A DNA stretch of 30,226 nucleotides from a virus, in IMG/VR virus record IMGVR_UViG_3300028796_000002, positions 1-30,226 of that record. One strand, written 5' to 3'. Below the pieces are notes generated by a model. It searched no databases, had not been told where the DNA came from, and worked only from the letters and a program-made list of their open reading frames with translations. Every line of letters begins with the position of its first letter. The stretch's first letter is position 1. The translations under genes and the position numbers were made by a program. Below are positions 14,109 to 29,900 of the stretch, one piece after another.

Positions 14109-14840
14109 TTACTTACGACGCTTGGAAGGCGTCGGGACCGGGCGGCCTTCGCCATCCGTCCCCGGAATCACCACGGCGATGGTTTGCCAGCCGTTATCGG
14201 GAGTCCAGATCGCCTTGAACTTGATCGTGCCGGAGATACCCCAACTCGGAGGCACCTCACCATCCGGCGGCAGCACAATCGGGTGTGACGGGAAGGGCGG
14301 CAGACCCTGATCGGGCTTCGGCTGTTCACCCGGCAGTCCCTGATCAGGATGCGGCTGCGAACCGGGCAGACCTTGATCCGGTCGCGGTTGATCGCCGGGC
14401 AGGGTGTTGTCGATGTAGACCGGCAGCCATCCGCCAGTGCCCGGAGGGAGCACGATAGGATGACTTGGGAAGGCGGGCAGTCCTTGGTCCGGCCTCGGCT
14501 GCGAACCGGGCAGGCCCTGATCCGGACGCGGCTGTGAACCCGGCAAGCCCTGATCGGGACGCGGTTGCTCACCCGGTAGACCTTGATCGGGATACGGCCC
14601 GTCAATCGGGATGCCGTAATCGGGATCGACCGGGGCGCCCGGAGGCAACGGCCAATAGATCGGATGCTCGGGATGCGGAAGATCGCCGGGCAGGGTCTGG
14701 TCCGGACGGCCACCTTGACCACCCGGCAGCGTGTTATCAGGACGCGCGCCGCCTTCACTGCCTGCGCCCGGCAACGTGTTGTCCGGACGGGCATCCGATT
14801 GCATCGGAATGATGAGCGCTAGAAATCCTTTTTCAGCCAT
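14109..14840 (-). CDS. Pro-rich tandem-repeat protein ('PDQGLPG' repeats)
   Basis: A 243-residue protein starting MAEKGFLALIIPMQSDARPD. Residues about 17-190 consist mainly of repeats of 11 residues with consensus PDQGLPGSQPR, varying to PDNTLPG and PDQTLPG. They are broken by two copies of 'FPSHPIVLPP' and one related 'EHPIYWPLPPG'. The last 50 residues form a non-repetitive, probably folded domain ('WGISGTIKFKAIWTPDNGWQ'). I have seen similar QGLPG repeats in phage and prophage proteins of Alphaproteobacteria, without a known function. The repeats lack the strict Gly-X-Y register of collagen. It lies upstream of the spike gene and has a strong AAGGAGA. It may be an extended linker or virion surface protein. 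Confidence 0.75.
   Translation of the reverse strand: MAEKGFLALIIPMQSDARPDNTLPGAGSEGGARPDNTLPGGQGGRPDQTLPGDLPHPEHPIYWPLPPGAPVDPDYGIPIDGPYPDQGLPGEQPRPDQGLPGSQPRPDQGLPGSQPRPDQGLPAFPSHPIVLPPGTGGWLPVYIDNTLPGDQPRPDQGLPGSQPHPDQGLPGEQPKPDQGLPPFPSHPIVLPPDGEVPPSWGISGTIKFKAIWTPDNGWQTIAVVIPGTDGEGRPVPTPSKRRK
14300..14410 (-). repeat. 33-bp tandem repeats, block 1, in the Pro-rich protein
   Basis: Three to four degenerate 33-bp units, each encoding PDQGLPG plus four variable residues (GEQPK, GSQPH, GDQPR). DNA copies differ mostly at third codon positions, showing divergence under protein-level constraint. Confidence 0.75.
14475..14590 (-). repeat. 33-bp tandem repeats, block 2, in the Pro-rich protein
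   Basis: Three to four units of the same 33-bp repeat (RPDQGLPGSQP type), separated from block 1 by a segment encoding FPSHPIVLPP and a Trp-containing turn. The same segment follows block 1 in the protein, so the whole block looks duplicated. Confidence 0.75.
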
Positions 14841-23404: not shown

Positions 23405-24195
23405 CCGATGATCACGTAGAGAATTGTCGGATTAGGCGGGTTCAGCGCGTTGTAGGCGGCCTGTGTGATCTGCGTCCACGCCCCCGCCGGTCCCGGTGGC
23501 CCCACCGGTCCCTGTTGACCTACCGCGCGCAACAGAAACGTGACCTCTTGGTTGTTGGCGAAGTTCGCGCCCTGCTGCCCTAAGAACGCCACCGGCACTT
23601 CAAACCAGTCGCCATTATTCGTCGCCGGTCCCAATAGCTTCCATTGTTGATAGTGCGACGAAAATCCACGCTCCTGCACGATGAACTGATCGTCAAACGT
23701 CGCCATGGTGAACAGCGCGGTAGGATCGAGCCCGTCCTGCGTCAGCCGGTCGATGTACCACTTGGTCGCCAGCGTCGGGTTGGCGTTGTTGATGCGGACC
23801 CGCCCGGCGCCGGGATCGGAAGACGCATTATTGGAGTCGAAGCGATACAGAAACATCGACGCCGAGGCGCCCATAGGACCGGGCGGGCCGGGCGGACCCG
23901 GCACGCCACTGGCAGTCAGTTCGCCATCCTGAACACTAAGCCCGTCGCCGATGCTGATGCGCTGCGCCGGTCCGCGCGCGGGATCGTAGCGACCCATCAG
24001 CGTTCCTGAATCCATCTCCACAACGATGTCGTCGTTGAAGTTGGAGAAGATCGCCTGTTGCAGCGGCAGACCGAGATCGTTGGTGCCGAGCCGGTTGACC
24101 ATCCACGCAATCGGATCGGCGGCCTCATCGGGCAGCCCCTGATCGGCGCCGGGCTGCACGACATAGCCGCGCATCTTCACCGAACCCTGCGTCAT
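23401..24195 (-). CDS. Collagen-like tail/virion fibre protein
   Basis: 264 residues from the ATG at 24195, which overlaps the stop of the previous gene as ATGA. A longer frame begins only with TTG (24255) or a less well placed ATG (24210). Two collagen-like stretches are visible: GVPGPPGPPGPMG (about residues 97-109) and GPVGPPGPAG (about 229-238). Between them lies a beta-rich domain with Asn/Phe/Trp patches. The segment 'ISIGDGLSVQDGEL' before the first stretch is a typical fibre-shaft motif. Near the N-terminus 'GADQGLPDEAA' echoes the PDQGLPG repeat of the protein at 14109-14840. The LamG adhesin follows immediately, so the two probably work together in a fibre. Confidence 0.7.
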   Translation of the reverse strand: MTQGSVKMRGYVVQPGADQGLPDEAADPIAWMVNRLGTNDLGLPLQQAIFSNFNDDIVVEMDSGTLMGRYDPARGPAQRISIGDGLSVQDGELTASGVPGPPGPPGPMGASASMFLYRFDSNNASSDPGAGRVRINNANPTLATKWYIDRLTQDGLDPTALFTMATFDDQFIVQERGFSSHYQQWKLLGPATNNGDWFEVPVAFLGQQGANFANNQEVTFLLRAVGQQGPVGPPGPAGAWTQITQAAYNALNPPNPTILYVIIG

Positions 24196-26912
24196 GCCGC
24201 ACGCCACCATGCCGGAGGCGGCAGCGTCGGCTGCCGTGTCCCGTAGCCGTGCCAACCCGTAGTGCCGGGATAGCCGCCCGGAAATGGCGACGGCTCGGGA
24301 TAGGGTGGCCAGAAGGCGTCGGCCGTGCCCTCGATCTGATGCGACGCAGCCACCAGCACGCCGACGCCGCCGACAATGTCATTGCCGTTGAGGTTGGCGG
24401 CCAAGGTCTCCAGATCGCCGGAGCCATAGGCCGTCATGGCGCCGAAGCCGACCACCTTGGCGGGCTTGGCAGTTACGATGCCGATGCCAACCACGTTGAT
24501 GCGGTAGAGGCCGACACCCACCACCTTGGCAGGCGCCGCCGCCAGCGCGGCCGTGATCTGGGAGCCCGAGACGCCCTCGCCCTCGGCGAGGTGGTTGTCC
24601 TGCCTGAGCAGCCCCGAACCCGAGGAGGCGGACCGGCCCGAGGCGGAAACCTCCCCTGCGTCGGCCACCAGCGCGCCTGCGCCCATCGTGGTCAGGTTGG
24701 CGGTGCCGAACAGGGTGGCCAGTCCGGAGGCCAGAGCACCCGAACCCTTGACCTCGGACCGTCCGAAACTGGCGAGGCTCGCTTTTCCGACGGCCAGCGC
24801 CGCCGTTCCACGTGAAACAACCAGCCCCGATGCGGCGACCTGCGACAGGCCAGCCGACAGCGTGCCGGTGCCCGACCAGCGCGCCGCACCAACGCCCGCC
24901 AGCGTGGCGGTGCTGGAAAGCACGCCCGTACCCGAGGCCACGTTCTGGCCCGAGCCGGTGACGATTGACCTTGCCGGGGCGAGGGCGCCCGAGCCCGCCA
25001 CGAATGCGGCGCCGGTGCTCGCCAGCCCGGCGAGACCGGAGGCCAGCGCGCCAGAGCCCTGCGACCGCGACAGACCGACCGAGACGACCCGCGAAGACTG
25101 CGCCTGCGGATCGCCGGTGCCAGCAATGACGACGACGCCCTCGGCGCCGACCACATTGGCCCGCGCGGCCAAGAACACGCCGGTGCCCCATGACAGCCCG
25201 GCGCCCCAGCTATCGAGGACGGCAGCCGGGGCGGAAAGCGTACCGGTGCCCGTCCATCTGGCTGATCCCTGCGAATTTAGCCCGGCTCCCTGCGCATAAA
25301 GGGCCCCCGTGACGACCCAGCGCGCGACGCCGGTGGCCGTGAGGCTGGCGGCCTGTGCCGAGACCGTCCCGGTGCCTTGCTGCGCTGTAGAGCCCGCGCC
25401 CGTGATCGTCGAGGCTGCCGGGGCCAGCACGCCGGTGCCGGAGGGGGCGGCGAGGATGACGCCCGCACCCGACAGGGTGGCAAACGAGATTAAGGCACCG
25501 GTGCCGCTGGCTGCCACAATCCCGTTGGCAGTGATGACGGCGGCCTGCGAAGTCAGTGAGGCGAAGGAACTCACCGACCTCGACAGGCCGACGCCAGCCA
25601 GAGCGGCCGCCGGGGTGACCAGCGCGCCCGTGCCTTGCGATCTAACCAAGCCGACCGAGGCGAGGCCAGCGGACTGCGCCGGGATCGAGCCGGTGCCTTG
25701 AATGACGACAACGCCCTCGAAGGCGCTGACATAGGCGACCGAGGCCAGCAGCGGCGCGGACACCACACGCGAGGAGGAGGTGCCCGCGCCAGCCACCGAC
25801 GCCGCGTTGGAGGACACGACGCCGGTGGCGGCCCAGCGCGTGAGGCCAGAGGCCACCAGCGAGGCAGCATTAGGGGACAATGCGCCGGTGACGATCCAGC
25901 TGGCCACGCCGGAGGCAGTCAACGTCGAGGTGGTCACCAAGGTGCCGGAGCCGTAGTGCCTGACCACCCCCACGCCTGACAGTGACGTGCCAGTCGCGAG
26001 AACGACGCCCGAGCCGGTCGAAAGCGTTACGCCCGGCGCCCCTATGGTGCTGGACGACGCCGCCAGCGGACCAGAGCCATGAGACAGCCCGGCGCCAGCG
26101 CCCGCCAGCGAAGCGGTAGAAGTCAGCGTGCCGACGCCGGTGACGCCGATGAAGGTGGCGCCGGTGCCCGCGAGGGCTGAGTCTGCGCCCGCCAGCGTAG
26201 CCGTGCCAGTCGAGCGCGAGATGCCGGGCGCAGTCAGAGCCGAGACCGCAGCCGTCAGCGTGGCGCTGCCGACCGAACTCGTTAGGCCGTCGCCGAGCTT
26301 GAGGAAGTTGCTCTGCGCATTCAGTGCGCCCGAGGTCGAGCGCGACGCCGAGACACCCGAAGCCACGGCAACGGCACTCGATCCCGCGAGCACGCCGGTG
26401 GCGGCAGCCAGCGAGGCGCCGGTGCCGATAAGCGTGACCACAGACGACGCCAGCACCGAGGTGCCGGTCGAGCGGACATTGCCATTCGCGACCAGCGCCG
26501 TGCCGGTGGTCGCCAGCGCGCCAGTGCCGGACACCGGCGGCGACAGACCCGTACCCGTGGCAACGATGCTCGCGAACTGCGACGGCAGCACACCAGAGCC
26601 GGTTGCCGAGGCGCCTTCGCCAGCGCCCGAGATCAGCGCGTCGGTGGTGGCAACCGCGCCACTGCCGTGCGACAGCCCGGCGCCCGCGCCCAGCAAGAAG
26701 CTCTGGCCCGAATTCAAGGTGACCGGCGCCACTACCGCTGTGACGACGCCAGCACCCGACATCGTCGCGGTCGCCGAGGACAGCGTGCCGACGGCATTGG
26801 ACTTGGCAATGCCGGAGCCTACGATCTTACATGCGACCACACCCGCAGGCGCAACTATCTCGTTGTGAACTCCACGGAGTTCAAACCACGAGACAGCTAC
26901 CCGGACGGTCAT
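24192..26912 (-). CDS. Giant repeat-built fibre/adhesin (about 21-residue Gly/Ala/Ser/Thr repeats)
   Basis: 906 residues. Residues about 30-870 are a tandem array of about 35-40 degenerate units of mostly 21-22 residues with consensus (S/V)GTGAL-x-A-x-A-A-x-L-x-G-x-G plus five to six variable residues (for example 'GTGTVSAQAASLTATGVARW'). The regular Gly and small-residue spacing, with little charge, suggests a beta-solenoid or a shaft of stacked short beta turns; this is inference. The C-terminal 40 residues are Pro/Gly/Tyr/Trp-rich ('WPPYPEPSPFPGGYPGTTGW'). The same repeat type links domains of the upstream protein. There is a strong GAGGAG before the ATG at 26912. No catalytic motif is seen. 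Confidence 0.75.
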   Translation of the reverse strand: MTVRVAVSWFELRGVHNEIVAPAGVVACKIVGSGIAKSNAVGTLSSATATMSGAGVVTAVVAPVTLNSGQSFLLGAGAGLSHGSGAVATTDALISGAGEGASATGSGVLPSQFASIVATGTGLSPPVSGTGALATTGTALVANGNVRSTGTSVLASSVVTLIGTGASLAAATGVLAGSSAVAVASGVSASRSTSGALNAQSNFLKLGDGLTSSVGSATLTAAVSALTAPGISRSTGTATLAGADSALAGTGATFIGVTGVGTLTSTASLAGAGAGLSHGSGPLAASSSTIGAPGVTLSTGSGVVLATGTSLSGVGVVRHYGSGTLVTTSTLTASGVASWIVTGALSPNAASLVASGLTRWAATGVVSSNAASVAGAGTSSSRVVSAPLLASVAYVSAFEGVVVIQGTGSIPAQSAGLASVGLVRSQGTGALVTPAAALAGVGLSRSVSSFASLTSQAAVITANGIVAASGTGALISFATLSGAGVILAAPSGTGVLAPAASTITGAGSTAQQGTGTVSAQAASLTATGVARWVVTGALYAQGAGLNSQGSARWTGTGTLSAPAAVLDSWGAGLSWGTGVFLAARANVVGAEGVVVIAGTGDPQAQSSRVVSVGLSRSQGSGALASGLAGLASTGAAFVAGSGALAPARSIVTGSGQNVASGTGVLSSTATLAGVGAARWSGTGTLSAGLSQVAASGLVVSRGTAALAVGKASLASFGRSEVKGSGALASGLATLFGTANLTTMGAGALVADAGEVSASGRSASSGSGLLRQDNHLAEGEGVSGSQITAALAAAPAKVVGVGLYRINVVGIGIVTAKPAKVVGFGAMTAYGSGDLETLAANLNGNDIVGGVGVLVAASHQIEGTADAFWPPYPEPSPFPGGYPGTTGWHGYGTRQPTLPPPAWWRAA
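24303..26825 (-). repeat. About 63-66-bp tandem repeats encoding the fibre shaft
   Basis: This covers the repeat array of the 906-residue protein, counted by eye at roughly 35-40 units. Units share the coding pattern for GTGAL/GSGVL followed by an Ala/Ser-rich strand and a Gly turn. DNA identity between units is partial, so slippage is old or constrained at the protein level. Confidence 0.75.
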
Positions 26913-26921
26913 TCAATCTCC

Positions 26922-29900
26922 TCACGCCGCCATGGACGGCAACAATGCACCATCGCCGCCCGATGCCGTACTGCCTGCGGAAACCATCACCGCAATACCC
27001 GATGACAGAACGCCGGTGCCGGTGCGCGGCACGTAGCCGACATCACCGAGGCCTGACAGCTGGCTGTAATTGGCAAACTGCAGATAACCAACGGCATCAG
27101 AACCGGGAGTGGCGATCCAAGACGTGGTGTATCTTAGTATATTGCCGCCCGCATACACGTTGGCCGGATCGCTCTTGAGTTGGAAGTAGTCGTTGTCCAA
27201 CTCCGGGCCAACACGATCAACAACGAACGAATAGCTGTTGCCAACAGTGAGCTTGATTGGCGGGTTAAACGTAAAATCAAGCGCGGTGTATGCCGATACA
27301 GCAGTGGTGACGTTAGACGCCTGACCAACTGTCGTCGCTGGCACAGTTGTTTCATTGTAGATTTGTGCGAAGAGCCCGTCCGGCGGAAGGCCAATCGCAC
27401 GTATGAGTAATCTGATTGACGTTAGATCGGCCCTGTCGGCAACAAAGCTCTGACCTATTTTCTTGCCAAAGTTTATCGAGCTTGTCGCACTCGCATTGCC
27501 TAGCTGGGTGTTGGCAAAGTTAAGCGCGCCGGTCGCAACATACTGCGCGACACCGCTTGAAACCATCGTCGCCGGTGCTGGCGCCATCACGCCGGTGGCG
27601 ATGAACCGCACATTGCCAAACGAGACCAGCGCCGTGGTGCCGGTGGTTAGTGTACCGGTGCCGCTGACTGGCGGTGATGAAACATCACCAACACCCGCGA
27701 GGCGGCTGCTGTTGTTGGGAAACGCCAGTATGCCTGTTGCATCATTGGCGGGGACGGTCGTCCACGCGCCCGACACCAGACGTAGTAGCGTGCCACCGGC
27801 ATAAACGTCGTTGTCGCAACGTAGTCGGTAGAAATTGTTTGCATCTATCGCGCCGGTTCTGGCGACGGAAAACGAGTAGCTGTTACCGGCGACAAGGTTG
27901 ATCGGCGGGTTGAACGTGAACGTGTAGCTCTTGACGGTGGTGGTGCGGACAGCAATCGTATCCGACGGCTGATCGCGCGCGGTCGCTGGCGTTGTCTCGT
28001 TGTAGACTTGAAGATAGACGCCGTCAGCCGGAGACCCGCTCACCGCCATCGTCAAGTTGATCGTGGAGAGTTGGCCAGTGATTGCGATAAAGCTCTGGCC
28101 CAACTGCGACGCGGCCACGTCATAGCCAAAGCCATTGTTGGTGTTGGTGGCCACGCCCATAGACTGGCGGGCCACCGACACATCGAGCGCACCCGTACCG
28201 GACCACCCTGTTAGTCCGAGGCCGGTCAGTGCCGGTCCGCCTTGGTCAATCTTAACTGCTGCGGCCTGCGTCGGAATGTAAGCGGTTAGGCTACCGAATT
28301 CGACCTGCGCGCCCCAGAACAGAAGAGACCTGTTGCTGCCCTGATAGTTCGTATAATTCGGCCCGACAGGCGCGACGTTGTCGTCGAGCAGCATCGGATA
28401 CATGGTGGCCTGCTCGGTGAGCGGTGCCGTGAGCGAGCAGCGATACCAACCGTTGCCAACATCCACGATGCTGGTTGCGGTGACGAGCGAGCCTGTTAGT
28501 CCGACGACGCCGGTCGCGATATTGAAGTTGGCATATACGTTGGTGCCAACCTGAATTTGAAACCACGACAACGTCTCAGCTTTGGCATAGATCGAGCACG
28601 TATGATCTGCACCAGCTGTCGAGCCAAGGGTCTGACCAAGCCAGTGCTGATTATATGTCGTACCGTCACTGATCCGCTCGGCCGTCATCGTTGAATTGGG
28701 CGCCATCGCCGCGTCGGCTGTCACCGTCACGGCGACGACGCCCCAAGGCGTCAGATTCATTTCCTCTGATCGCTTGACGATATTGTATCGCGCCTGAAGG
28801 ATCGTTAGCGCGCCAGTGCCGGTCGATGACGAGATCGCAAAGTTGGACGTGACGAACGAATTGACAGGCGTGAGCGTCGCGGTGCCGGAGACCACCGGTG
28901 GCTGCGTGCCGAGCAGCGTCGATGACGCGGCCTGCAGCGGTGGCACCACTATCCCGTCCATCTGCCAGACGGTGAGGACAAGATTTGCAGCGCTATCGGT
29001 TTCCCAGACTTCGCCGCCGCCCTGCCGATCATACGAATACATCGGGGTATAAACCCGGCCGTATGTCATGGCGGTGGCGTAGAGGTTCTCGTCGTCCAGC
29101 GCGCCGATGCGATCTATCGCGACGTGATACAGCTGACCTTTGCTGACCGTGACTGGCGATGCAAACGTAAATTCAACCGGCCCCGTCGTGTTCAGAGGGA
29201 CCGCGTCCACCGAAACGGTGGTTGTGCCGAGTAACGTAACCGGCAGGTAATTCTCATTGGCGGTGGAAATCCGGCACCGCAGGCCATCGGTTGGCACGCC
29301 GTACTTACAGAGCTTTGCAGTTATCTTGGTGACCGAGGTGCCGACGGAGACAAAGGCTTGCCCCTCTTTCTCAGCGCCGTAATTGATAGCGCCGAAAATG
29401 AGGTCCCCGCCATCGCCACCTTCAATGACGATTGAAGCCGGTACGCCGCCCGATGGGCTGGTCGATCCCGAGATGCCGCTTGAAGTGGTCGTGGCGCGCG
29501 CTGACGCCAATGCGCCGGTGCCATCGACCGGCAGCACCTCCAGCGTCTCACCCATCCATGACAGGAAGCCTGCCGGTGTGGTCTGGGTGAACTCGTCCTT
29601 CTCGGTGCGGATCGTTCCGGCAGAACCGACAACGCCACTTTGAAAGTAAAGCGCATGGTCGGTGGTGGGAGCCACCGAAAAATCTATGCCATTCGCTCCC
29701 GTCGCTGGATCCGCCGCTGCATTGCCATTCCAAAAAAGATTATTGATCCGAGCCCAGAATCGCTTGGTGCCGCTATCCCATGCGAGCGACATCACGTCGC
29801 CAATGTTGGGAACACTTTGGAGATTGGCTATAGTAGAGCTGTTGAGAAGCACAAGGCCTTGGTCGCTGATGTATATTGTCTCAGTGTTCCACGTCAGCAA

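Follow-up and report, generated by a model that had tools for sequence, protein, structure and literature searches.

A 21-residue repeat array in a putative virion-fibre protein of mostly uncultured phages

Results

Array gene and fibre cassette

The window analysed was a 30,226-nt stretch of viral DNA (positions 1 to 30,226 of IMG/VR record IMGVR_UViG_3300028796_000002) from a contractile-tail phage, which encodes its sheath, baseplate wedge, tape measure and own fibre/spike proteins at 0-13 kb. The array gene P0001 is located on the minus strand (24192..26912, stop codon included) with its ATG at 26912 and its stop at 24192, and codes for 906 residues, exactly the coordinates and length given by the initial annotation when compared with the open reading frame list and translation. 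Two longer contigs of this phage carried an identical gene. The gene is part of a cassette transcribed from the head side in the order portal, Mu-F-like minor head protein, a 125-aa virion protein, further beta-rich proteins, P0002, P0001, P0003 and P0004, and P0004 is followed by a DUF2213 protease and then by the major capsid protein.

Downstream of the array gene, P0003 (23401..24255, minus strand) encodes a collagen-like virion protein with a phage tail-tip C-terminal motif (PF24243, E 1.9e-5). Its TTG falls within the array gene and its true start is therefore probably inside the open reading frame. Homologues of P0003 were 55-63% identical and adjoined the array gene in relatives too, while several relatives of the collagen-like gene had no array in the sequence stretch examined. 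The collagen-like neighbour has 284 aa here and about 500-1255 aa in relatives (L010, L011, L034, L036, L038, L040), and is a second repetitive cassette protein with changing length. P0004 (21941..23404, minus strand), the last large cassette gene, encodes a virion structural protein (phrog_10356, E 3.8e-14) that appeared lectin-like by inspection and had a homologue at the equivalent place in L011. Elsewhere in the structural region, 33-bp tandem repeats with about 80% matches (window positions 14298-14626) lie over a small minus-strand open reading frame (14109-14840) and give it a second, short 11-residue repeat.

The 21-residue unit

The array occupies residues 39-869 of P0001 (24306..26798, minus strand) as delimited by a circular-profile parse, a chain parse and a leave-one-out profile, and consists of 36-39 units of about 21 aa with the consensus TGTGALVAQAATLAGVGVSRS and the pattern TG[TS]G[AVT]L-x-[AS]-x-x-[AS]-x-[LVI]-x-G-x-G-x-[SV]-x-[SW]. 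The wraparound profile returned 36 full units across these residues and the chain (spacing) model 39, in keeping with the 35-40 units and the nearly complete coverage of the protein proposed in the initial annotation. Successive units were 21 residues apart in about half of the cases and mostly 20, 22 or 23 residues apart in the rest. A lag of 21 gave the sole strong peak in the BLOSUM autocorrelation of P0001 (z 11.1-12.5), and in twelve other proteins tested from the same phage the z value at this lag was at most 3.6. A leave-one-out profile trained on 214 units of other phages, with P0001 excluded, scored P0001 at 436 bits against a mean of 3.8 and a maximum of 12.3 for 100 shuffles of the same residues, and the internal repeat was thus significant by profile analysis. 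At the DNA level no array in P0001 was reported by Tandem Repeats Finder, the units being too diverged. The 21-residue repeat array is real and beyond chance.

Conserved positions within the unit alternate and are small or aliphatic (G2 G4 L6 A8 / A11 L13 G15 G17), with L6 conserved in 90% and G17 in 91% of the units. Charge was almost absent at positions 2, 4, 6, 13, 15 and 17, and the variable polar residues sit at positions 1, 9-10 and 20. A, G, S, T and V together account for about 69% of P0001.

The array is flanked by non-repeat ends. The N-terminal 38 residues (26799..26912, minus strand) carry the motif VSWFELRG at residues 7-14 (26871-26894, minus strand), and VSWFxLxG opens both of the separate array genes, P0001 and that of L037, and is also found inside the fused array of L026 with a variant in L068. 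The Pro/Trp-rich C-terminal tail (PGGYPGT...WWRAA; residues 870-906; 24195..24305, minus strand) has P, G, Y and W columns that are invariant in nine relatives, and this motif by itself retrieved the nearest relatives of P0001. Two longer landmark units with the motif EGVVVI are located at residues 399-404 (25701..25718) and 591-596 (25125..25142, both minus strand), positions that are conserved among relatives. Landmark EGVxVI units occurred twice, and once three times, per array in all nine aligned proteins at 85-257 residues apart, with about 4 to 12 units between the two landmarks depending on the relative. The stand-alone arrays of L054, L082 and L108 open with ALGRLALG, and those of L054 and L082 end in RxLxVxA-type repeats. 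Comparison of the sequences indicates that array proteins come with two or more types of end cap.

Fusion and fission with the upstream fibre gene

The upstream fibre protein P0002 (26922..30226, minus strand) is cut by the window edge and has 1933 aa in L002. It contains choice-of-anchor R domains, an RcGTA head-spike-fibre domain and scattered units of the 21-aa array type, and matched the NCBIfam families NF048003 (E 1.6e-33, above the cut-off) and NF041539 (E 1.8e-10). Residues 1298-1491 matched Rcc01080 (PDB 6tb9, E 7e-24). P0001 itself matched no NCBIfam family and so is without the head-spike fibre domain NF048003. A small clustered-cysteine protein (CGDCHLCCK), which possibly holds a metal cluster, is encoded directly upstream of the fibre gene in L002 (528-872) and L010 (4970-5320).

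At the junction of the two genes (26913..26924, minus strand) the sequence TGA GGA GAT TGA is followed by ATG, with the same frame on both sides, and an AGGAG ribosome-binding site (26918-26922, minus strand) lies upstream of the P0001 ATG. The two genes are probably translationally coupled. Stop-codon recoding was considered as a cause of the split and rejected, as P0001 itself ends with the very same TGA stop and the relatives terminate at the equivalent position. P0002-type and P0001-type sequences form one protein with no intervening stop in L010 (2000 aa), L011/L012 (2631 aa), L021 (2774 aa) and L022 (1359 aa), and the array is joined to other N-terminal modules in L018 and L026. In most relatives that share the C-terminal tail, the array makes up the C-terminal 600-900 residues of a modular virion protein of 1,400-3,100 aa. 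The array gene of L037 is also separate, and is out of frame with its upstream gene.

Distribution and library searches

A search with a DNA pattern covering two consecutive units gave 60 stretches from viruses and 11 from bacterial genomes, and the repeat was found in about 40 viral contigs, nearly all of them metagenomic; these counts are lower bounds, as the pattern demands exact 21-residue spacing. Thirty-eight array open reading frames, some from the same phage and two of them bacterial, scored above 130, whereas shuffled sequences reached at most 16. Array sizes included 41 units in the 1003-aa protein of L054, 34 in L082, 17 in L108 and 16 in L057, along with 47 weakly matching units in L065. 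At least two clear arrays were among the bacterial-genome stretches, one on a contig assigned to Desulfocapsa (L123, 15 units) and one on a contig assigned to an alphaproteobacterial MAG (L120, 8 units), while a search of bacterial genomes via the collagen-like neighbour gave no match. A tblastn search of the arrays against phage and plasmid records was empty with the low-complexity filter on, and in a local control with the same filter P0001 was still found in L026 and the match between L057 and L108 was lost, so this absence is weak evidence.

P0001 matched no Pfam family, including collagen, RTX, curlin, ice nucleation and PF12810, nor any catalytic family, in line with the lack of a catalytic signature noted initially. 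Nothing credible was matched in Pfam by nine relatives, and eight further array proteins gave only a weak Laminin_G match in one of them. No repeat family in PHROGs was matched by the array proteins scanned, the array of P0001 and three relatives was unmatched in NCBIfam, and arrays were unmatched in the PDB. A PHROG 'endolysin' match (E 0.02) in one of nine array proteins was weak and composition-driven, and was set aside. None of the four libraries names the repeat. By sequence comparison the repeat is widespread in virion-fibre genes of mostly uncultured phages and is without a library model. Repetitive fibre shafts as such are already known, and the 21-residue repeat is a variant not modelled before.

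Length change and selection

L054 and L082 were 89% identical and were set apart by two clean deletions, one of 63 residues (exactly 3 units) and one of 84 (exactly 4). L033 and L021 differed by one 23-residue unit, and the dN/dS of their arrays was about 0.27, indicating purifying selection. A weak higher-order repeat of 7-8 units was seen in some relatives only. Within P0001, adjacent and distant units were 31% versus 29% identical in amino acids and 47% versus 46% in nucleotides. Recent tandem duplication in this array was rejected, as neighbours resemble each other no more than distant units do, and the units therefore separated long ago; three assembled contigs carry the array at the same length. 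Of the length change by recombination anticipated in the initial annotation, whole-unit changes were thus borne out in relatives and a recent change in the P0001 array itself was not, although such recombination would probably have shaped P0001 as well.

Discussion

Location on the virion

P0001 is likely to be the shaft-like portion of a surface fibre on the virion with which the phage catches its host. A shaft is indicated because the sequence is repetitive, uncharged and domain-free and is fused to binding modules. This reading is consistent with the location of the cassette between the portal/minor-head genes and the DUF2213 protease/major capsid genes, and with the fusion to P0002-type sugar-binding modules in relatives. 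The RcGTA domain in P0002, the linked 125-aa garland homologue, the unit-wise indels, the alternating uncharged conservation, the purifying selection and a beta-helix-like model also point to a fibre.

P0002 and P0001 together may build a filament on the capsid vertex, comparable to the RcGTA head fibre, in which P0001 would be the long and flexible distal portion, although this appears somewhat unlikely. The RcGTA head-spike fibre binds host capsule polysaccharide (PMC7296036, PMC10218006), and its receptor domain in P0002, the position of the genes within the head module and the separate tail-fibre genes beside the baseplate genes all favour a head fibre. The N-terminus of the P0002 family (MALPVTITG), which is conserved with alternating hydrophobic residues, loosely resembles the RcGTA N-terminal anchor, as a resemblance only. 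The sugar-binding domain is however also found in tail fibres, as annotated in Rhodobacter phage RcapMu, and the neighbouring 125-aa protein has a homologue in a garland protein that surrounds tail fibres. Rcc01080 is likewise a flexible virion fibre encoded beside head genes, but has 325 aa, and P0001 itself had no match to it; the RcGTA fibre is anchored by its N-terminus to a base protein, a pentameric jellyroll at the capsid vertices, and no homologue of the base protein was identified here. The Caulobacter phage phiCbK gp76 is a proposed capsid filament with PF12810 glycine-rich domains whose gene was expanded by tandem duplication (PMC3556154). Like P0001 it is a long Gly/Ala-rich virion protein, in this case proposed as a flexible filament on the capsid, and it differs by its PF12810 domains where P0001 is without a Pfam match. 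Location in the head module would not by itself prove capsid attachment, since the long tail fibre and garland genes of Agrobacterium phage 7-7-1 are also near portal and capsid genes (PMC12796354).

Attachment to the baseplate as a side fibre with a garland, formed by the 125-aa protein and the array fibre in the manner of gp014 and gp015 of 7-7-1, was judged rather unlikely. The 125-aa virion protein (phrog_3758; L008:6438-6812 in the phage of the window) was on the same strand and within about 4.4 kb of 23 of the 38 array open reading frames, upstream in 21; it was not detected beside the other 15, several of which are on short fragments. Its family profile matched gp014 of 7-7-1 (PDB 9rkv_A, E 1e-10), a 141-aa garland protein that binds tail fibres and is encoded adjacent to gp015 (PMC12796354). 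The homology and the genetic linkage to arrays, the adjacency of gp014 and gp015 and the PF24243 'phage tail tip domain' on the neighbouring P0003 would all agree with a side fibre. The two systems are alike in having a contractile tail and a gp014 homologue, which the array phage encodes in its fibre cassette. They differ as no open reading frame parsed as a 21-aa array in the 7-7-1 stretches scanned (1-30000 and 46000-69391), and the family of the 125-aa protein is broader than garlands, since another homologue is encoded by a P22-like phage, Sphingopyxis phage VSN-002. The RcGTA and garland leads point to opposite ends of the virion, yet both would agree on a receptor-binding fibre.

Fold of the array

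The initial annotation had suggested a solenoid. AlphaFold2 run on six units with a 40-row alignment of non-overlapping six-unit tiles predicted an all-beta structure with one long strand region per 21 residues (pLDDT 58.5, pTM 0.44), and the model of the full 906 aa, at a pLDDT of 36, was too poor to be used. The weak six-unit model superposed by VIA-align on beta-helices, namely PelI (2.8 A over 121 residues), bactofilin (2.5 A over 95) and haemolysin A (2.7 A over 117), which agrees with a solenoid, while the low model scores and the Foldseek search of the PDB and viral models, where nothing was significant (E above 1), did not bring the confident or known fold that had been looked for. Pectate lyase-type, haemagglutinin-type and bactofilin beta-helices resemble the weak model of P0001 units in about one coil per 21 residues and a small/aliphatic core, and differ in having no sequence similarity to P0001 and no significant Foldseek match. 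A beta-solenoid fits the residue pattern and the AlphaFold model, and is weakly supported and unproven.

An antiparallel cross-beta meander or a trimeric beta-shaft in place of a one-chain solenoid seems unlikely. The core G-G-L-A/A-L-G-G reads almost the same in both directions, which could allow adjacent strands to pair in antiparallel fashion, and the monomer predictions were low in confidence; the six-unit model nevertheless superposes on parallel beta-helices, and residue-size covariation did not distinguish parallel from antiparallel stacking. A flexible disordered linker, a low-complexity A/G/S/T spacer without a fold, would suit the composition and the low pLDDT of the full-length model, but is very improbable given the strict alternating conservation of L6 and G17, the few charged residues, the all-beta prediction, the landmark units kept in position across relatives and the dN/dS value.

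Proposed model and significance

For the putative fibre shaft, the most likely arrangement of the beta-rich units is a narrow solenoid in which each unit forms one coil of the stack; at a presumed rise of 0.48 nm per coil it would be about 17-19 nm long. The fibre would be modular, with sugar-binding domains assigned to P0002 by homology and length and reach presumably provided by the array, made as one polypeptide in relatives and here from two adjacent, probably coupled genes. Its length would evolve by the gain and loss of whole units through recombination between repeats, as seen in relatives and as may have occurred here. More broadly, and tentatively, the 21-residue unit may represent a hitherto undescribed structural repeat, either a beta-solenoid or a cross-beta fibre fold, shuffled as a cassette among many uncultured phages, placed on different receptor-binding modules or split off as its own gene, and tuned in length by inter-unit recombination, which would determine how far a virion filament reaches.

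Phages catch capsules, flagella and pili with flexible fibres on their heads and baseplates. To our knowledge the proteins of such fibres are mostly unidentified, as with the 7-7-1 capsid fibres and the phiCbK head filament, whose protein is either not known or has only been proposed. The repeat provides a sequence handle for one fibre class, comprising its consensus, the gene cassette and length variants that occur naturally, so that any relation of fibre length to the number of repeats can be tested directly.
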